From: Candidatus Coprenecus merdigallinarum
GTDB lineage: Bacteria; Bacteroidota; Bacteroidia; Bacteroidales; UBA932
Direction: 5' to 3'
NCBI GenBank assembly: GCA_018712545.1
Contig: DVGV01000079.1
Coordinates: 1 to 35,019, forward strand
DNA length: 35,019 nucleotides
Shown here: in pieces, positions 5,713 to 12,950 of the stretch
Position numbering within the stretch: position 1 is the stretch's first letter
Layout of the letters: each line of letters begins with the position of its first letter
Notes under the pieces: model-generated
The model's database searches: none
Told to the model about the DNA's origin: nothing
Seen by the model: the letters and a program-made list of their open reading frames with translations, nothing else
Made by a program: the position numbers and the translations under genes

Positions 5713-5733
5713 CTTTAAGACATGTACAACGAT

Positions 5734-7794
5734 ATGAAAAAGATACTTACACTTACAATGGCGGCCGCCCTGCTGTCCCTTTTCCAGCTGAGCGCGCAGA
5801 TAGACAGAAGCAAGGCTCCCGAGGCAGGTCCCGCTCCCGTGGTGGAGTTCGGTGACTTCGAGAAATTCACCCTCGACAACGGTCTCCGCGTCATCCTCGT
5901 GGAGGACCATGACCGTCCTGTCGTCAACTTCAATATCAATTTTATCGTGGATCCCTTCGTGGAGGGTGAGAAGGCAGGCGAGTCCTCTTTCTTCGGCGAT
6001 CTCTGGGGCAGGGGAACTGTAAACCGTACTGCAGACCAGCTCAACAATGAGGTCGATTTCCTCGGCGCCACATTCCGTACCGGCTCCCGTTCCCTGGGTT
6101 TTATGACCCTTACCAAGTACACCGACAAGATGATGGATGTCCTCACCGATGTGCTGTACAACCCCACCTTCCCTCAGGAAGAGCTGGACAAGATCAAGGA
6201 CCAGGCTCTGGGCGTGCTTCAGATGTCCCGTACTTCTCCAGGTGCCATTATGGACAATATCATGACCGCTACGGTATATCCTGAGGGACATGCCTACAGC
6301 GATATCATGACCGAGGCTACGGTAGAGGCCATCACTGTAGATGACTGCCGTGAGTACTACGAGAACTACATCATTCCAAACAGCGCGGTTGTCATCATTG
6401 TAGGTGATATGAACCTTAAGGAAGCCAAGAATCTCTGCGAGAAATATCTCGGCAAATGGGAGAAGGGCGAGATCATCACCCATGAGGACCCCGCGGTCAA
6501 CTATCCCGAGGGCATCCAGGTGGTATTCTCTCCCAAGGACGGTGCGGTACAGTCTACTATAGAGATGATGTCTCCCATCACCCTTACCCCTGACTCCGAG
6601 GACCGTATGGCCCTGAGCATTGCCAATGCCATCTATGGCGGCGGTGGATTTGACGCCAAGCTGTTCCGCAACCTCCGCGAGACTCACGGATATACCTACG
6701 GAGTCTACTCCAGCGTCAGCTCGGATGAGATCTCCGGTAAGTTCAGCGCCGGCGGCGATGTCAACGGCAACGCTACCGACAGCTCCTTCGTGCAGATGCG
6801 CTTCGAGCTGCAGAACATGATGGACGGCGACTATACCGAGCAGGATCTGGAGAAGTTCAAGACCATGTATGCCGGTGATTTCTCCCGCTCGCTGGAATCT
6901 TCAAGCACCATTGCCAGCTTCGCTTACACTATCGAGCGTTACGGTCTGCCCGATGACTACTACGCCACCTATCTCCAGAGACTGGATGCCCTGACTCTCG
7001 ATGATATCCGCGCCGTAGTGGCCAAGTACTTCGACCCCGACAACATGTACTGGTTCTGCGTGGGTGATCCTTCCGTACTGCCCGCTCTGGCGGCTTACGA
7101 CTCTGACGGAGTGGTAGTAGAGCTCGACTTCGAGGGCAAGCCCATCGAACGCAAGGAGGTATCTGCAGACGTGACTGTCGAGTCCGTTCTCGAGAACTAT
7201 CTCAATGCCATCGGCGGCCGTGCTCTAGTGGAGGGCATCACCGATATGACCGAAGTGGTGGAAATGAGCATGATGGGCATGAGTATCTCGACTGAGACCA
7301 AGCGTATCCCCGCACAGAAAGCATTCTCCATGACTCAGTCAATGGGCGGTACTCCCGTATCTACGATAGTACTCCGTGACGGCAAGATCAAGGTGTCTGC
7401 CGGCGGTATGGAGCAGGAGATTACCGATCCCGCACAGGTTGAGGCCATGAGCGACATCTATCCCATCCCTGAGGTTCTCGGTCCTGAGCAGGGCTATGTA
7501 TTTACCCTCGAGGGCATCGAGAGCGTGGAGGGCCGCGACGCCTACAAGGTAAGGCAGGAGAAGAGCGGTATTGCTGCCTACCACTACTATGATGTGGCTA
7601 CAGGCCTCAAGGTCAAGAGTGTCGTTTCGGCGCAGGGTCAGACTACAGAAGCAGTCCTGGCTGATTATCAGAAGACAGCCTACGGTATCCTGTATCCTAT
7701 GACCCAGAAAGTCACTATGCCCCAGGTTGGTCTTGTGGAGGCCAAGGTTACCAAGGTTGAGTTCAACACCGGTATCACCCCTGACCAGCTGTAG
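5734..7794 (+). CDS. M16 family non-catalytic partner with extra C-terminal domain, secreted
   Basis: A 686-residue M16-fold protein with a signal peptide (cleavage near QLSAQ, about residue 22). At the position of the zinc motif it reads SFFGD (85-89), so all three zinc-motif residues are lost and it cannot bind zinc there. It keeps the R/Y element (LRETHGYTYG, Arg315 and Tyr322) that the upstream partner lacks, so the two proteins complement each other as an obligate pair. Residues from about 465 onward form an additional C-terminal domain (VLENYLNAIGG, then beta-rich sequence) resembling periplasmic lipoprotein-carrier-like folds. That resemblance is inference. The start at 5734 fits the signal peptide; an ATG at 5722 is also in frame. 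The gap from the catalytic gene is 21 bp. Confidence 0.9.
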   Translation: MKKILTLTMAAALLSLFQLSAQIDRSKAPEAGPAPVVEFGDFEKFTLDNGLRVILVEDHDRPVVNFNINFIVDPFVEGEKAGESSFFGDLWGRGTVNRTADQLNNEVDFLGATFRTGSRSLGFMTLTKYTDKMMDVLTDVLYNPTFPQEELDKIKDQALGVLQMSRTSPGAIMDNIMTATVYPEGHAYSDIMTEATVEAITVDDCREYYENYIIPNSAVVIIVGDMNLKEAKNLCEKYLGKWEKGEIITHEDPAVNYPEGIQVVFSPKDGAVQSTIEMMSPITLTPDSEDRMALSIANAIYGGGGFDAKLFRNLRETHGYTYGVYSSVSSDEISGKFSAGGDVNGNATDSSFVQMRFELQNMMDGDYTEQDLEKFKTMYAGDFSRSLESSSTIASFAYTIERYGLPDDYYATYLQRLDALTLDDIRAVVAKYFDPDNMYWFCVGDPSVLPALAAYDSDGVVVELDFEGKPIERKEVSADVTVESVLENYLNAIGGRALVEGITDMTEVVEMSMMGMSISTETKRIPAQKAFSMTQSMGGTPVSTIVLRDGKIKVSAGGMEQEITDPAQVEAMSDIYPIPEVLGPEQGYVFTLEGIESVEGRDAYKVRQEKSGIAAYHYYDVATGLKVKSVVSAQGQTTEAVLADYQKTAYGILYPMTQKVTMPQVGLVEAKVTKVEFNTGITPDQL

Positions 7795-7965: not shown

Positions 7966-8653
7966 TCGGATTTCCCTCCTGGAAGGTGCCGACAAAAGTA
8001 GCATTTGCCCGGCACCTTCTCGCCATGCCTTCTGCTGCAGCCCCTTTATGGCCCCTTCCCGCCGGTATTCCTGTTTCCGGTTGACTGGAAGGTGCCGGAG
8101 AAATCGCCTTTTCTCCACCACCTTCTCGATTTCGTTATATGCCAACCCACCCCAGAAACCTCTCTCGCCAGTTCTGCCCCGGATTTCCCTCCGGAAGGTG
8201 CCGGGGAAAGTAGCATTTGCCCGGCACCTTCTCGCCATGCCTTCTGCTGCAGCCCATTTATGGCCCCTTCCCGCCGGTATTCCTGTTTCCGGTTGACTGG
8301 AAGGTGCCGGAGAAATCGCCTTTTCTCCACCACCTTCTCGATTTCGTTATAAACCGACCGGCCTCAGAGGCCTCTCTCGCAGGCCCTGATCCGGATCCCT
8401 GTCCGGAAGGTGTCGACAAAAGTAGCATTTGCCCGTCACCTGCTCGCCATGCCTTCTGCTGCCGCCTCTTTACGGCCCCTTCCCGCCGGTATTCCTGTTT
8501 CCGGTTGGCTGGAAGGTGACGGAGAAAGCGCCTTTTCTACACCACCTTCTCGATTTCGTTATAAATCGACCGGCCTCAGAGGCCTCTCTCGCAGGCCCTG
8601 ATCCGGATCCCTGTCCGGAAGGTGCCGACAAAAGTGTTATTTCCCCGGCACCT
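7966..8653 (+). repeat. Left array of 106-bp phased REP-like palindromes (A/B alternating)
   Basis: Seven palindromic units begin with GGAAGGTG at 7981, 8087, 8193, 8299, 8405, 8511 and 8617, exactly 106 bases apart each time. Each opens with a hairpin of about 40 bases with outer arms AAGGTG and CACCT(T/G), followed by a spacer of about 66 bases. Two types alternate A-B-A-B-A-B-A. Type A has ACAAAAG...CCCGGCACCT inside the hairpin and a GCCATGCCTTCTGC spacer. Type B has GGAGAAA...TTTTCTCC inside and an ATTTCGTTATA spacer. The array starts with the tail of a B spacer (from about 7966), and its last A hairpin ends one base before the stop codon of the minus-strand MBL gene. The layout resembles BIME/REP clusters. 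It explains most of the gene-free stretch 7795-8654. Confidence 0.93.
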
Positions 8654-8654
8654 G

Positions 8655-9449
8655 CTATTCGGCGGCGGGGGTACGGAAGTCGAGGAAGCCCTCGGGGAGA
8701 TGCATGCCGGCTACGAGCAGGTGCTGTTCGCGGGCGATGCGGAGCATGTGCTTGCGGGCGGCGACGGCGGCCTCCTGGTCCATGTCATAGGTGGCGCAGA
8801 TCTCGGGATGGTCGAGCTGGAGGGCAAGACCGTGGATGATGTCGCCCCAGATGAGGATGTCATCGACGCGGAATACCGTATGGCCGGGAGTGTGCCCGAC
8901 GGCGTAGAGAGCCTCCACACCGCACGGCAGGATGTCTCCGAACTCGAAGAGATGCAGGCGGTCACTGTAGGCGTTCATGGTCTGCACTGCCTGGGCGTTC
9001 CGGTCGGCGGGCATATTCATCCATGCGTCGTACTCGGGCTGGGAGGCGTAGACCTGGGCGTCGGTGTACACGGGAGCACCTTCGGCATCCAGCATCCCGC
9101 CGATATGGTCTCCGTGAAAATGGGTGAGAAACAGGTAATCCACATCCGCAGGAGTCAGCCCCAGCGAATCAAGACCGCGGCGTATACCTCCGTCTGGCAG
9201 TCCGAGGCCGGTATCGAAGAGCAGAACCTTGCCGTCCTTGCGCACTAAGAAGGCGCTCATCGAAGAAGGTACAGCATCCTCAATCCCGAGGGATGCCACT
9301 AATTCGGGAGAAGCATCGGGGAAGATGGAGAGTGACTGACCGGTGTCCCTGTCGCACAGCCAGATGATCTCAGTTTCAGATTTGCCGGAAGAGCATCCGC
9401 CTGCAAACAGCATCGCAGCGGCGGCGGTGATCAAGATAATTCGTTTCAT
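8655..9449 (-). CDS. MBL-fold metallohydrolase, predicted lipoprotein
   Basis: A 264-residue metallo-beta-lactamase-fold hydrolase. The N-terminus MKRIILITAAAAMLFAGGC with Cys19 is a lipoprotein-type signal, placing it in the periplasm or on a membrane face. The metal-binding motif THFHGDH (His110, His112, Asp114, His115) is intact, with a second histidine region VGHTPGHT (about 185-191) and Asp203 in IWGDIIH. The family includes lactonases and other hydrolases; the substrate cannot be read from the sequence. The stop codon abuts the last hairpin of the left repeat array. The start is 28 bases after the MATE stop, and a -7-like box overlaps that stop codon, so it may be transcribed both with the MATE gene and alone. 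Confidence 0.88.
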   Translation of the reverse strand: MKRIILITAAAAMLFAGGCSSGKSETEIIWLCDRDTGQSLSIFPDASPELVASLGIEDAVPSSMSAFLVRKDGKVLLFDTGLGLPDGGIRRGLDSLGLTPADVDYLFLTHFHGDHIGGMLDAEGAPVYTDAQVYASQPEYDAWMNMPADRNAQAVQTMNAYSDRLHLFEFGDILPCGVEALYAVGHTPGHTVFRVDDILIWGDIIHGLALQLDHPEICATYDMDQEAAVAARKHMLRIAREQHLLVAGMHLPEGFLDFRTPAAE

Positions 9450-9472
9450 GGCAGATAGTGTTGATGTTTCTG

Positions 9473-9480
9473 CAAATTTA
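9473..9480 (-). promoter_or_regulatory. Putative -7 box for the MBL gene, overlapping the MATE stop codon
   Basis: On the minus strand TAAATTTG matches TAnnTTTG; its TAA is also the MATE stop codon (9478-9480). It lies 23 bases ahead of the MBL ATG. No convincing -33 element is seen, so this is tentative. Confidence 0.35.
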
Positions 9481-10815
9481 CATTTTCCGCCGTAAATAGA
9501 AATAGTACGCTATGCCGACTCCGTCAGCCAGGGCCCATCCGATGGGTATGGACCACCAGATACCGAGAACGCCGACAGAAGGAATGGCCGCGAGGATGTA
9601 GGCCAGCGCGACGCGGGTGCCGAGCGAGAGGACGGTCAGCACCACGGACATGGCCGGCATGCGGATGGCGCGGTAGTAGCCGTACAGCAGGAAGAGGATG
9701 CCGATGCCGAAGTAGAAGGAACCCTCCACCCGCAGGTACTGCACTCCGAGATGGATGATTTCCGCCTCTTCCGCCCGCACGAAGATGAGCATCAGCGGCC
9801 GTGCCAGCAGAAAGACCAGGAGCGAGACAGCCAGAGAGAAAAGCACCGATATCAGGAATGCGCTCCGGACTCCCTTCCGTATCCGCCCCGACTTGCCAGC
9901 GCCGTAGTTTTGCGCAGTAAACGTGGAGAACGCATTGCCGAACTCCTGCACCGGCATATAGGCGAACGAGTCGATCTTCACCGCCGCCGCAAAAGCCGCC
10001 ATCACCGCCGTTCCGAAGGTATTGACCAGCCCCTGCACCATCAGTATGCCGAAATTCATCACCGACTGCTGCACACAGGTCAGCGTCGAGAAGGAAGCTA
10101 TTTCCCTCACTGAGGCACCGTCCAGCCGCATATCCTCCCTCCGTAACCGCAGTTCCGGCCGCCTGCACAGCACATAGACCATCAGCCCGAGCGCCGATAC
10201 CCCCTGAGCCGCCACCGTCGCCAGAGCCGCACCGCCTACCCCCATGCCGAAGCCGAGTATGAACAGCAGGTCCAGAGCGATATTGAGCACCACAGAGACT
10301 CCGAGGAACCACAGCGGAGTGACCGAGTCCCCGACCGCCCGAAGCAGGGCCGCATAGAAATTGTAGAGGAAAGTGAAAGGGATGCCGCCGAAGATAATGA
10401 GCAGGTACAGCCGCAGCATATCGTATATCTCCGCCGGCACCTGGAGCAGCCTCAGAATCGGGTCAATGAGGGCAAACGACGCCACAGTGAGGGCAGCCGT
10501 CACACCCCCGATCAGCACCAGCGACACGTAGATACTGCGCCGCAAGCCGGACATGTTCCCCGCTCCGAACTGCAGCGAGAACACCGTCCCGCTGCCCATC
10601 GCCAGGCCCAGCAGCACCGATATCAGAAACGTCATCAGGCTGTAGGCCGACCCGACAGCTGCCAGCGCATCGGAGCCTATACACCGTCCTACTATCAGGG
10701 TATCAGCGATATTATAGCACTGCTGCATCAGCGAGCCGAGCATCATCGGCAGGGTGAATCGCAGCAGCGTGGAAGTGATGCCGCCAACAGTGAGGTCTCC
10801 GGTACGGGTCGTCAT
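9478..10815 (-). CDS. MATE family multidrug/metabolite exporter
   Basis: A 445-residue inner-membrane protein with about twelve hydrophobic helices and the MATE layout. It begins GDLTVGGITSTLLRFTLPMM and contains LMQQCYNIADTLIVGR and FQFGAGNMSGLRR-type loop sequence, as in bacterial DinF/NorM-like antiporters that export cationic drugs or metabolites using Na+ or H+. The length is typical. It begins with ATG at 10815, facing away from the RAYT gene across a 115-bp AT-rich gap, and is followed by the MBL gene on the same strand. Substrate and coupling ion cannot be determined here. Both genes lie inside the pair of inverted repeat arrays. Confidence 0.93.
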   Translation of the reverse strand: MTTRTGDLTVGGITSTLLRFTLPMMLGSLMQQCYNIADTLIVGRCIGSDALAAVGSAYSLMTFLISVLLGLAMGSGTVFSLQFGAGNMSGLRRSIYVSLVLIGGVTAALTVASFALIDPILRLLQVPAEIYDMLRLYLLIIFGGIPFTFLYNFYAALLRAVGDSVTPLWFLGVSVVLNIALDLLFILGFGMGVGGAALATVAAQGVSALGLMVYVLCRRPELRLRREDMRLDGASVREIASFSTLTCVQQSVMNFGILMVQGLVNTFGTAVMAAFAAAVKIDSFAYMPVQEFGNAFSTFTAQNYGAGKSGRIRKGVRSAFLISVLFSLAVSLLVFLLARPLMLIFVRAEEAEIIHLGVQYLRVEGSFYFGIGILFLLYGYYRAIRMPAMSVVLTVLSLGTRVALAYILAAIPSVGVLGIWWSIPIGWALADGVGIAYYFYLRRKM

Positions 10816-10833
10816 CTACGGAAAATTTGCGGT

Positions 10834-10841
10834 CAAATATA
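10834..10841 (-). promoter_or_regulatory. Putative -7 promoter box of the MATE-MBL pair
   Basis: Minus-strand TATATTTG fits TAnnTTTG, with a TTTTG about 16 bases further upstream as a possible -33 element. It lies about 20 bases before the MATE start codon, in the AT-rich divergent gap. For the RAYT on the other strand, TAGCTTTA at 10904-10911 is a weaker match. Confidence 0.5.
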
Positions 10842-10930
10842 CTGAAAATTTTACCTTCAAAATATTTTTACGTTTTCGACACCTTTATTCCGATAATCAT
10901 GCGTAGCTTTACGGGAAAATACATAAAGCC

Positions 10931-11890
10931 ATGAGGGGAAGAAATCAACATCTATGTTTTACTTCACACAAGGAAGTACTCTGCAGAGACTACTCTGACT
11001 ACGCAACACTGTTCAACTGCATCGCGCAGGGCATCATTAACACCAACAGCAAGCTCCTGTCCTACAGCATTATGTCCAACCATGTGCATTTGGGAGCAAT
11101 TACAGACAAGTCATCCGGCCTGATTCAACGCATCCGCTCCTCCTACACCCAGATGTTCAATCACAAATACGGACGGAAAGGACAGCTCGGCGACCCGTCG
11201 TATTTCCAGCTGAACCTCGAAGGACGCATCCACATCGCCGCCTGTCTGAGCTACATCTCGCGCAATGCCTGGCATCACGGGGTATGCGCCAATCCTTTCG
11301 ATTACCCCTTTTCATCTGCCAATCTGTACTTCAAGAAGAGTACCTCCATCCTGCCATGTACGGAACTTACGCAGGACGCCGCCCGAAGAGCCAGACTGGT
11401 AAGAGAGAACAATGTCATCCCGAAAAGCTTGTCATTCGACCGGTTCGGCCAGATATCTCCCGCCGACATCGTGGAGACTGACATCGTTGAGGGATACTTC
11501 GGATCATACAGGGCGTTTGACTTCAATCTTCATAGAGTCAACTACGATAAGTGGAAAGAAGAGCAGCTTTCTGAAAATCCCGACGTTCCGCACATTGACC
11601 TACAGACTGTCGAGCCGCTTATGTCACCGGACCAGATAGCGGCCGTGCTGAAAAAAAGCCCGGGATGGGTTTCCGATGTACCTGTTTCCGATCTCGAGCT
11701 TTGCCGGATTATCGACAACGAACTTATAAGGCAGTTCCACGTAAGCAGTTATGCTCATCTGACCCGGGAGCAGAAACTCGAAATCTGTGACATACTCAGA
11801 GACGACCTGCATTATCTTCTTCCGGACAAACAGATTGCCAGGTGCCTGGCAATAGATGCGGAAAGCGTGCGGAAGAGAATGTGGCGGTAA
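10931..11890 (+). CDS. REP-associated tyrosine transposase (RAYT, Y1/IS200-like fold) with C-terminal extension
   Basis: This 319-residue protein belongs to the Y1 HUH single-strand nuclease superfamily, as in IS200/IS605 TnpA and TnpA-REP. The HUH motif is His51-Val-His53 (SIMSNHVHLGAI). The candidate nucleophile is Tyr108 in CLSYISRNAWHHG, followed by the RAYT-like NPFDYPFSSANLYF. Residues from about 205 to 319 form an extra C-terminal region with helix-turn-helix-like segments (MSPDQIAAVLKKSPGWV; LPDKQIARCLAIDAESVRKR), possibly for binding palindromes. The gene stops at 11888-11890 and the right palindrome array begins at the next base, so its natural substrate is probably these palindromes. 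There is no second ORF such as TnpB, so this is not an ordinary IS605-type element. Its DNA looks more AT-rich than its neighbours (not calculated). Confidence 0.87.
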   Translation: MRGRNQHLCFTSHKEVLCRDYSDYATLFNCIAQGIINTNSKLLSYSIMSNHVHLGAITDKSSGLIQRIRSSYTQMFNHKYGRKGQLGDPSYFQLNLEGRIHIAACLSYISRNAWHHGVCANPFDYPFSSANLYFKKSTSILPCTELTQDAARRARLVRENNVIPKSLSFDRFGQISPADIVETDIVEGYFGSYRAFDFNLHRVNYDKWKEEQLSENPDVPHIDLQTVEPLMSPDQIAAVLKKSPGWVSDVPVSDLELCRIIDNELIRQFHVSSYAHLTREQKLEICDILRDDLHYLLPDKQIARCLAIDAESVRKRMWR

Positions 11891-12300
11891 ATGGCATGGC
11901 AAGCAGGTGCCGGAGAAATGCCGCTTTTGTCGGCACCTTCCGGACAGGGATCCGGATCAGGGCCGGCGAGAGAGGTTTCTTGGGTGGGTCGGCTTATAAC
12001 GGAATCGAGAAGGTGGTGGAGAAAAGGCGCTTTCTCCGTCACCTTCCAGTCAACCGGAAACAGGAATACCGGCGAGAGGGGGCTGTAAAGGTGCTGCAGC
12101 AGAAGGCATGGCGAGAAGGTGCAGGACAAATGCCGCTTTTGTCGGCACCTTCCGGAGTGGGATCCGGGGCAGGGCCGGCGAGAGAGGTCTCTGAGGCAGG
12201 TCGGGTTATAACGAAAAAGAGAAGGTGGTGGAGAAATGCCATTTTCACCGTCACCTTCCAGTCAACTAAAATCAGGAATACCTGCGGGAAGAGCATAGGA
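11891..12300 (-). repeat. Right array of 106-bp phased REP-like palindromes, inverted relative to the left array
   Basis: On the minus strand the same A/B units recur: the plus-strand ends ACCTTCC fall at 11941, 12047, 12153 and 12259, again exactly 106 bases apart, with types A, B, A, B. Spacer homology begins immediately after the RAYT stop codon (ATGGCATGGCAA at 11891-11902 matches the start of the A spacer). Beyond 12259 an A spacer is still recognisable (AGTCAACT, CAGGAATACC) but fades by about 12300, so that side is a decayed or truncated edge. Loops and spacers differ from the left array by point changes, while spacing has not changed. From about 12300 to 12364 nothing further is recognisable. 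Confidence 0.92.
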
Positions 12301-12364
12301 AGGTCAGGAATTGAAGGTATGACTGGAAGCAACTGGGATACCGGCAGGATACTAATCAGCGGTA

Positions 12365-12471
12365 GACACAAAGATAACCTCCGAAAGGACTAGCCGCCCT
12401 CGGCTCTAGAGGGAGGGGCCCGCCGCGAAGCGGTGGGAGGGCCTGGTCCTTTCGGAGGTTATCTTTGTGTC
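12365..12471. repeat. Compact inverted-repeat element with perfect 26-bp arms (MITE-like)
   Basis: Bases 12365-12390 and 12446-12471 are perfect reverse complements (26 bp), enclosing a 55-base GC-rich centre. The centre has its own palindrome CCGCCGCGAAGCGGTGG and the strings GCCGCCCTCGG and GGGAGGGGCCC. Each arm contains TATCTTTG pointing outward (12460-12467 on plus; 12376-12369 on minus), which matches the Bacteroidota -7 box. It lies between the right array and the 3' end of the ATPase operon. No target duplication is obvious. It may be a non-autonomous mobile element or a large hairpin. There is no T-run, so a classical terminator is unlikely. Confidence 0.75.
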
Positions 12472-12488: not shown

Positions 12489-12950
12489 CTACGGCAGAGC
12501 GAGGAACGCGCAGGCAAATGCCAGGATGGCGTAGAGCTCGGGGAACACGGCGAGAATCATGGTGCGGGAGAAGACGTCGTGTCCGTTGGACATCTCGTTG
12601 ATACCGTTGCTGACGAGGCTGGCCTGCTTGATGGCGGACCACAGACCTACGAAACCGAGGGCGAGACCGGCTGCGCACATAGCCAGTCCCTGGTTCATGG
12701 TGAGGACGGTCGAAGCTTCTTCCATCGAGCCGAGGCTGCTCAGCATCAGGAAGAATCCTGCGAATCCGTACAGACCCTGGGTCGAAGGAAGCACGCCGAG
12801 GAGCATTGCCTTACCGAACATATCGGGTTTCTTCTTGAGGCCCGCTACAGTGGTGTTGCCGGCCATTGTCACGCCGATGGCGCTGCCGATGCAGGAAAGT
12901 GTCAGCATTATGGCCATGCCGGCGTAAGCTAAAATCAAAGGTGTTGACAT
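12489..12950 (-). CDS. atpK: A/V-type ATP synthase subunit K (rotor proteolipid), probable Na+ type
   Basis: A 153-residue membrane protein with four helices made of two fused hairpins, the proteolipid that forms the ion-carrying ring. The ion-site carboxylate is present only in the second hairpin (Glu138 in VFPELYAIL). The first hairpin has LPSTQGLYGF with Leu54, Thr57 and Gln58, and Gln109 lies in SAIKQA. This is the ligand pattern reported for the Na+-binding ring of the Enterococcus hirae V-ATPase (Leu61, Thr64, Gln65, Gln110, Glu139), with the same 29-residue Q-to-E spacing. Sodium coupling is therefore likely, by inference from residues. It is the last gene of the ATPase operon, 15 bases after subunit I. 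Confidence 0.93.
   Translation of the reverse strand: MSTPLILAYAGMAIMLTLSCIGSAIGVTMAGNTTVAGLKKKPDMFGKAMLLGVLPSTQGLYGFAGFFLMLSSLGSMEEASTVLTMNQGLAMCAAGLALGFVGLWSAIKQASLVSNGINEMSNGHDVFSRTMILAVFPELYAILAFACAFLALP

Follow-up and report, generated by a model that had tools for sequence, protein, structure and literature searches.

A RAYT-like gene beside inverted, phased palindrome arrays in Candidatus Coprenecus merdigallinarum, and the candidate cognate elements of related RAYT clades

Two arrays of palindromes and a RAYT-like gene stand together in the DNA analysed here (the window, 35,019 nucleotides of Candidatus Coprenecus merdigallinarum, contig DVGV01000079.1), which is contig C57 of a metagenome-assembled genome (MAG), G000, of 88 contigs and 2.2 Mb with 87% completeness. 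Array 1 (7979..8656, forward strand), delimited by a site scan, Tandem Repeats Finder (TRF) and inverted-repeat comparison, comprises seven palindromes in the order A, B, A, B, A, B, A. Array 2 (11893..12291, reverse strand), delimited by the site scan and a locus comparison, comprises four and is inverted relative to array 1. Sites matching AAGGTG-N24-CACCT start at 7983, 8089, 8195, 8301, 8407, 8513 and 8619 in array 1 and at 11904, 12010, 12116 and 12222 in array 2, and the site-to-site interval is 106 bp in nine of nine cases; a looser scan added six near-matches, irregularly spaced and scattered over other parts of the window. TRF assigned array 1 a tandem period of 212 with 90% matches over 7981-8656, and the inverted-copy arms 8055-8463 and 11883-12291 are 85% complementary. 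Unit types A and B alternate in the window arrays, and among 86 distinct copies bearing one of two downstream motifs 75 are of type B and 11 of type A. A CRISPR array was rejected as an explanation, as the spacers are not unique but recur as two types. The RAYT-like gene (10931..11890, forward strand) ends at 11890, similarity to the unit begins again at 11893 and array 2 has its first palindrome core at 11904; a tail of array 2 without a palindrome extends to about 12346, as judged from the empty site in genome G017. Genes for a MATE-family protein (9478..10815, reverse strand) and an MBL-fold protein (8655..9449, reverse strand, with its stop codon abutting array 1) stand between array 1 and the RAYT gene, so that the arrays flank three genes. 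A preliminary description of the locus had proposed two opposed, phased arrays of alternating palindrome types with a Y1-HUH gene directly before array 2, and this layout is confirmed.

The encoded protein has 319 residues, with its core at about residues 1-128, and shows a Y1-HUH fold with HuH and a single Tyr. All 24 aligned sequences, that of the window included, keep H51, H53 and Y108 (loci with stops or fragments stand outside the alignment). Family matches fell below their cut-offs, namely Pfam Y1_Tnp with 21.3 bits (cut-off 23) and NCBIfam REP_Tyr_transpos (NF047646) with 31.6 bits (cut-off 80), the latter being sub-cut-off in all seven proteins scanned. An AlphaFold2 model built from the 24 sequences reached a predicted local confidence (pLDDT) of 85.6, and its best fold match in the PDB was 4er8_A, E. 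coli TnpA-REP with bound REP (E 3e-5, probability 1.00), followed by the IS608 and ISDra2 transposases. The relatives' profile also reaches 4er8 by sequence (E 0.0015), and the earlier naming of the protein as a RAYT is upheld by the fold match. Residues W94, Q95, E100, H101 and R104 are named as GTAG contacts in PMC6006769; none of the five is kept in the alignment to 4er8, whose columns were read by eye. At the place of the Y---NP motif the window RAYT reads Y108-ISR-N112-A113, and relatives in other clades read YVLRNP or similar. The distance from HuH to Y is 57 residues (H51 to Y108). The C-terminal helical extension (residues 177-319; 11459..11887, forward strand), modelled alone, gave a pLDDT of 72 and a predicted TM-score (pTM) of 0.43. 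It is helix-turn-helix (HTH)-like at most: a fold search with this domain yielded no significant match, the best being HTH-like 2x48_A (probability 0.80, E 1.8), and the Pfam hits of the 24 members contained no HTH family, only Y1_Tnp (24) and Peptidase_M20 (one, E 0.024). G000 holds five further relatives of the protein at 22-45% identity. Uncultured Bacteroidales MAGs contain near-identical relatives (L135-L137), and Candidatus Coprenecus merdipullorum has a broken copy (L141); an order-wide search at E <= 1e-30 found the RAYT in two of 294 genomes, G000 included, so the close group is narrow.

The units are not confined to the locus. G000 gave 34 matches to the unit of this family (F1), of which seven are on the window contig and 27 lie outside the window locus; the units thus form a dispersed family, as had been anticipated. 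We counted copies in 19 congeneric genomes, for F1 with the G000 unit as query at E <= 1e-3 (in G010, 40 of 51 F1 candidates were scored). Genomes with an intact RAYT of 98-100% identity hold 29 (G000), 37 (G006), 30 (G007) and 45 (G010) F1 copies, and the other 15 hold 11 (G002, where the RAYT is broken), 11 (G001), two (G011), two (G012), one (G017) and none (ten genomes). The M16 proteins of G000 and G002 are 98% identical, so this contrast lies among close relatives, with G002 only 81% complete. F5 is present in three, four, five and six copies in the four RAYT5 genomes, in one copy in G017 and in none of the 14 others. F2 forward counts were 42, 44, 46 and 22 in the four genomes with a clade-2 RAYT (reverse 42, 46, 51 and 17), 27 in G006 and 26 in G001 (reverse 23 and 30), and at most five elsewhere; in G001 a contig ends in a fragment of a RAYT, with F2 units next to it. 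F6 reaches 73, 37, 26 and 13 copies in the four RAYT6 genomes. Reversed-pattern controls were zero in the F2, F5 and F6 pattern searches, and one-sided rank tests gave p values of 7e-4 (F1), 2e-3 (F2), 7e-5 (F5) and 0.035 (F6), which serve as a guide only. Arrays are at or near contig ends in G000 contigs C13, C15, C24, C49, C5 and C72; MAG assembly therefore probably breaks in arrays, and true copy numbers may be higher.

Orthologous sites differ in their number of units. At the G000:C27 site, G000 has two units, G006 four (+211 bp), G001 one (-107 bp) and G010, whose contig stops there, at least two. G007, which is RAYT-positive, has none, and its flanks read straight through as an exact empty site, providing the presence/absence polymorphism that the preliminary description had proposed to look for. 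G002 retains only the left flank, which is unmatched in the other 13 genomes. CCGCACT occurs at both borders of the filled site and reflects either duplication of the target or excision through homology. At a second site (G000:C77, G002:C12, G006:C34, G007:C40, G010:C39) the family order is common and unit numbers differ; its far end has an F1 pair in G006, G007 and G010 that is absent in G000 (the G002 stretch ends before it). The G000 copy of this site (L225, 649-1965) has three families in a row, as four F2, three F1 and six F6 units. At a third site (G000:C49/C24, G001:C41, G007:C45, G010:C16), five F6 units stand within an F1 array in G010. Arrays of different families thus nest in and abut one another.

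To place the RAYT locus itself in context, 11 stretches around the gene for the M16 peptidase, the left outer flank in the window (5722..7794, forward strand), were fetched from other genomes. In G001, G017 and G013 the order is M16-MATE-MBL-ATPase without RAYT or arrays, in G003 the M16 and ATPase genes are present and MATE and MBL are missing, and the other seven stretches lack these neighbours. G010 has array-RAYT-MATE-MBL-array, with MATE and MBL oriented as in the RAYT-less genomes; in G000 and G007 the whole RAYT-MATE-MBL segment is inverted relative to G010. G006 and G002 share the gene order of G000, their contigs end before M16, and G002 is without array 1. The insertion point on the MBL side is sharp against G017 and G013, with no clear target duplication there. 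Where borders between gene and array were compared, they do not differ between the two orientations, which places the inversion breakpoints within the arrays, and the inversion is most simply explained by homologous recombination between the inverted arrays. MAG misassembly may lie behind single cases. As read from the compared assemblies, the empty site, the variants with zero, one, two and four units, the nested arrays and the inversion show gain, loss and recombination.

The right outer flank (12489..12950, reverse strand) is a gene that, judged by its sequence alone, probably encodes the small membrane subunit of a V-type ATPase operon. Beside this operon, window positions 12365-12471 form a 29-bp inverted repeat (97%) around a GC-rich hairpin; near-identical blocks occur in G017, G013, G002 and G010, and different hairpins stand at that place in G006, G007 and G001.

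Related RAYT clades carry arrays of their own. Clade 2 has the arm CACCTTCGGAAGGTG at a pitch of 117-118 bp, clade 3 (G006:C10) ACTCCTTCCGAAGGAGT at 127-128, clade 4 (G011:C12) GCAGGTGAACC at 104, clade 5 GAGAGTGTACC at 84, 94 and 105-106, and clade 6 CCRCAACGGCAG at 105; the array of the G011:C38 RAYT has the arm ACAGGTG at 106, and G011:C8 shows a single interval of 124. These array-bearing clades are 40-48% identical, their arms are unrelated and their plan is similar, with arrays flanking the gene on both sides in inverted orientation in most loci read. At more distant Bacteroidales loci the palindrome pitch is 85 and 106 (L154), 72 (L155 and L156), 51 (L174) and 50 (L179), and two distant Y1 loci (L167 and L181) have 51-52-bp tandem repeats beside the gene. 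A single fixed detector found a palindrome family of at least three members in 16 of 32 named RAYT loci (L135-L166), in five of 33 weaker RAYT loci (L167-L199; not all regular) and in none of 15 control stretches (11 RAYT-less loci and four slices of the window, of which two overlap). The one-sided Fisher test of 16/32 against 0/15 gave p 4e-4 for loci that include orthologues and are not independent.

Other arrangements were met among more remote relatives. L038, L161 and L285 form a separate RAYT lineage (about 30% identity) with long inverted repeats containing CACGTTGCTTTTTAGTT, an arrangement of terminal inverted repeat (TIR) type, and in L039 (2746-4028) a RAYT relative at 22% identity has on each side a single AAGGTGCCC palindrome, the two being inverted relative to each other. 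RAYTs at about 30-34% identity were considered as a source of F6 and rejected, as no F6-type family stands beside those examined.

We then compared the anatomy of 91 F1, 76 F2 and 67 F6 distinct sites, whose outer arms are constant by selection. On both sides of the site centre, A/T occupies offsets 3.5 and 4.5 in 82-100% of sites and offset 5.5 in 69-99%, and by our own arithmetic the centres of arm and A/T tract lie roughly a helical turn apart in F1 and F2. In F2, the inner tracts are complementary in only 9-20% of sites at offsets 3.5-5.5. A/T content is a feature common to the families as sampled and pairing is not, which favours recognition as duplex DNA. The oriented F1 sites have no conserved GT[AG]G foot in their consensus, and at offset 21.5, outside the palindrome, their pairing is 0.72 against 0.61 predicted. 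An apparent excess of mismatches in hairpin stems was set aside, being largely due to mixed site orientations and vanishing once F1 was oriented. Four of the 11 window sites were folded as single strands, and all four gave z values of -4.0 to -7.9 against shuffles.

Spacing is held while the spacer sequence diverges. Among 63 distinct B-type spacers (length filter 40-100 nt), 57 are of 70 nt and six of 69 nt, with identity averaging 0.76 over 600 sampled pairs. Indels per substitution were 0.134 in spacers and 0.452 in control intergenic DNA, a comparison of few controls and gappy alignments on which we do not rely. Of the 40 distances below 260 bp between neighbours in the G000 loci, 25 measure 105 or 106, and the remaining 15 involve F2 units, junctions of families or an absent unit; the 27 F6-F6 intervals in the fetched stretches are 104 (three), 105 (22) and 106 (two). 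We chose one pitch by hand for each clade or locus, including loci that show more than one. These 14 values gather around multiples of 10.5 bp (R 0.73); merging the 50-52 class into one entry leaves 11 values, with a null p of 4e-4. The best period on the tested grid, from an earlier pitch list, was 10.75.

From these comparisons we consider it probable that the locus belongs to a single-strand transposase system of RAYT/TIRYT-like kind, and that the units of about 106 bp, in which a palindrome of some 40 bp is joined to a conserved spacer, are its cognate non-coding elements. We lean towards a scheme in which the arms would be recognised as duplex DNA and the HUH chemistry would act on single strands. 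The RAYT, perhaps via its C-terminal helical domain, would recognise its own arms in duplex DNA, with the A/T tracts presumably lying a helical turn inwards of the arms and adjacent sites on the same face of the helix, some 10 turns from one another. The HUH-Tyr core would then cut and rejoin single strands, probably during unwinding at replication, and whole units would thereby be copied into or beside existing arrays. It is more tentative, and on our reckoning rather unlikely, that these proteins make up a RAYT-like class reading duplex operators, with arms of each clade's own, phasing on one face (5-12 turns) and arrays acting as both launching pad and preferred landing site. If this were so, arrays would grow by whole units, rival families would nest in each other, and inverted arrays would also render the segment that they enclose invertible.

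Several observations weigh against the transposase scheme. The inner A/T tracts of F1 are complementary in 88-90% of sites at offsets 3.5-4.5 (44% at 5.5) and those of F6 in 52-63% at offsets 3.5-5.5, so that unpaired tracts are clear only for F2; duplex recognition is favoured short of proof, as F1 single strands do fold. Within the palindromes of oriented F1 sites, pairing is about what the columns predict, i.e., there is no covariation. Junctions between families, assigned by a stricter classification rule, scatter at 50, 51, 84, 102, 115 and 144 bp (F1-F6) and at 63, 87, 107, 108 and 117 bp (F2-F6). Sixteen of the 32 named loci, including most of the distant lineage, have no palindrome family that the detector found; two of them (L135 and L137) lie on the contigs that also bear the names L115 and L117, where F1 sites are seen. 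Phased arrays are missing beside those RAYTs of the genus that are about 30-34% identical, some of which have long inverted repeats instead. The 27 F2 units of G006, which has no clade-2 RAYT, exceed the 22 of RAYT-positive G013. The expectation that copy number follows the RAYT gene holds for F1 (29-45 against 0-11), but its sister family F6 follows its RAYT poorly: among genomes in which no clade-6 RAYT was found, F6 peaks at 106 copies in G010 and reaches 44 in G002, 37 in G001, 22 in G017 and 19 in G000, the remaining genomes having three to seven (six genomes) or none (four). The MAGs are also related by descent, and the copy-number tests are therefore not independent.

Part of this evidence suits a classical REP/RAYT system, in which the substrate would be single-stranded hairpins and the arrays REP-like hairpin clusters; that the palindromes are the RAYT's substrate had been supposed in the preliminary description. 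The RAYT fold, folding better than shuffles at four of four tested sites, the pairing of the F1 inner tracts and retained stem mismatches reminiscent of REPs all agree with it. Yet covariation is lacking, F2 inner tracts are mostly unpaired, and a constant spacer length would have no obvious reason on a single strand. With neither a GTAG/GTGG foot nor any of the E. coli contact residues, the palindromes are not REPs in the strict sense, and we hold the classical account to be doubtful. The arrays could instead be binding platforms of a host DNA-binding protein, nucleoid-associated or regulatory, that spread by tandem duplication and recombination and where RAYTs merely landed. Such an origin would sit well with pitches near helical multiples, with the unpaired F2 tracts, with the weak tie between F6 and its RAYT and with a single intergenic site housing arrays of several families. 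It is nevertheless improbable in our view, given arms that differ by RAYT clade and mostly flank the gene on both sides, and given F1 and F5 copy numbers that separate RAYT-positive from RAYT-negative genomes.

Two further accounts carry far less weight. The MBL stop codon abutting array 1 might point to amplified terminators of transcription, or to amplified mRNA hairpins, that serve to control expression and are unlinked to the RAYT, but the strict pitch, the missing covariation and an Rfam scan of the window without a match at gathering score make this very unlikely. Three genes between two inverted arrays also recall a composite transposon, array-MBL-MATE-RAYT-array, mobile as one unit with MATE and MBL as cargo. 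We reject this as having almost no probability, since three RAYT-less genomes (G001, G017 and G013) have MATE and MBL in place between the same neighbours without arrays.

The findings matter because RAYT substrates outside the GTAG world are poorly defined. Here, several related clades within one genus each come with multi-copy sites whose arms differ and whose plan is similar. Such a series is natural material for matching protein residues to the bases that they read, and it also bears on whether these proteins act on duplex or single-stranded DNA. The empty site and the one-unit steps make mobility directly testable.

The following comparisons with known systems draw on excerpts of the papers cited. 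The preliminary description had considered an undescribed class. Atypical palindromes flanking Bacteroidetes RAYTs (PMC6006769) and the TIRtrons, RAYT-like genes between long inverted repeats (PMC3733652), precede that claim, and long phased arrays are what differs from the accounts in those excerpts; among the titles and abstract openings listed by searches of open-licence PubMed Central (PMC), none is on phased palindrome arrays beside RAYT genes, which is weak evidence. BrickBuilt miniature inverted-repeat transposable elements of Porphyromonas gingivalis (PMC4596501) are likewise tandem repeats within mobile elements of a Bacteroidales member, compared at filled and empty sites, but they have TIRs like those of ISPg elements, their main text contains no word beginning "palindrom-", and the excerpts mention no link to RAYTs. 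Subclass 2.6 (RAYT group 5), as excerpted from PMC6006769, is mostly from Bacteroidetes and has atypical palindromes without GT[AG]G by the gene, seen only manually, with copies elsewhere in the genome; it differs in a median HuH-Y distance of 82 and a 21-residue insertion, against 57 residues here.

The closest known systems are TIRtron/TIRYT and REPtron. With the former (PMC3733652) and with TnpA-Y1 subclass 2.1, beside whose genes the excerpt of PMC6006769 reports no REP-like sequences, the window RAYT shares a long RAYT-like protein with a C-terminal extension and a HuH-Y distance of 57, near the usual medians of 58-67. As in the TIRtrons described in PMC3733652, inverted repeats unrelated to GTAG repeats flank the gene, and in some of those genomes repeat families matched to the gene occur elsewhere, some self-complementary or clustered. 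Many, but not all, TIRs there share GGGGWSAS, which is absent from the arrays here (seven window matches, none in 7979-12346); a C-terminal HTH (Bac_DnaA_C, HTH_23, HTH_28) is described for them, and the helical domain of the window RAYT is HTH-like at most. The excerpted text mentions neither phased multi-unit arrays nor arms specific to each clade on one plan. REPtrons of E. coli and pseudomonads (TnpA-REP with REP, BIME and REPIN) differ in their GTAG foot and contact residues, whereas the present system has arrays of a long unit of fixed length and a long C-terminal domain. They share with it the Y1-HUH fold (4ER8) and dispersed palindromes, each gene having its own repeat family, and here too the cognate repeats stand beside the gene and are dispersed in the genome.

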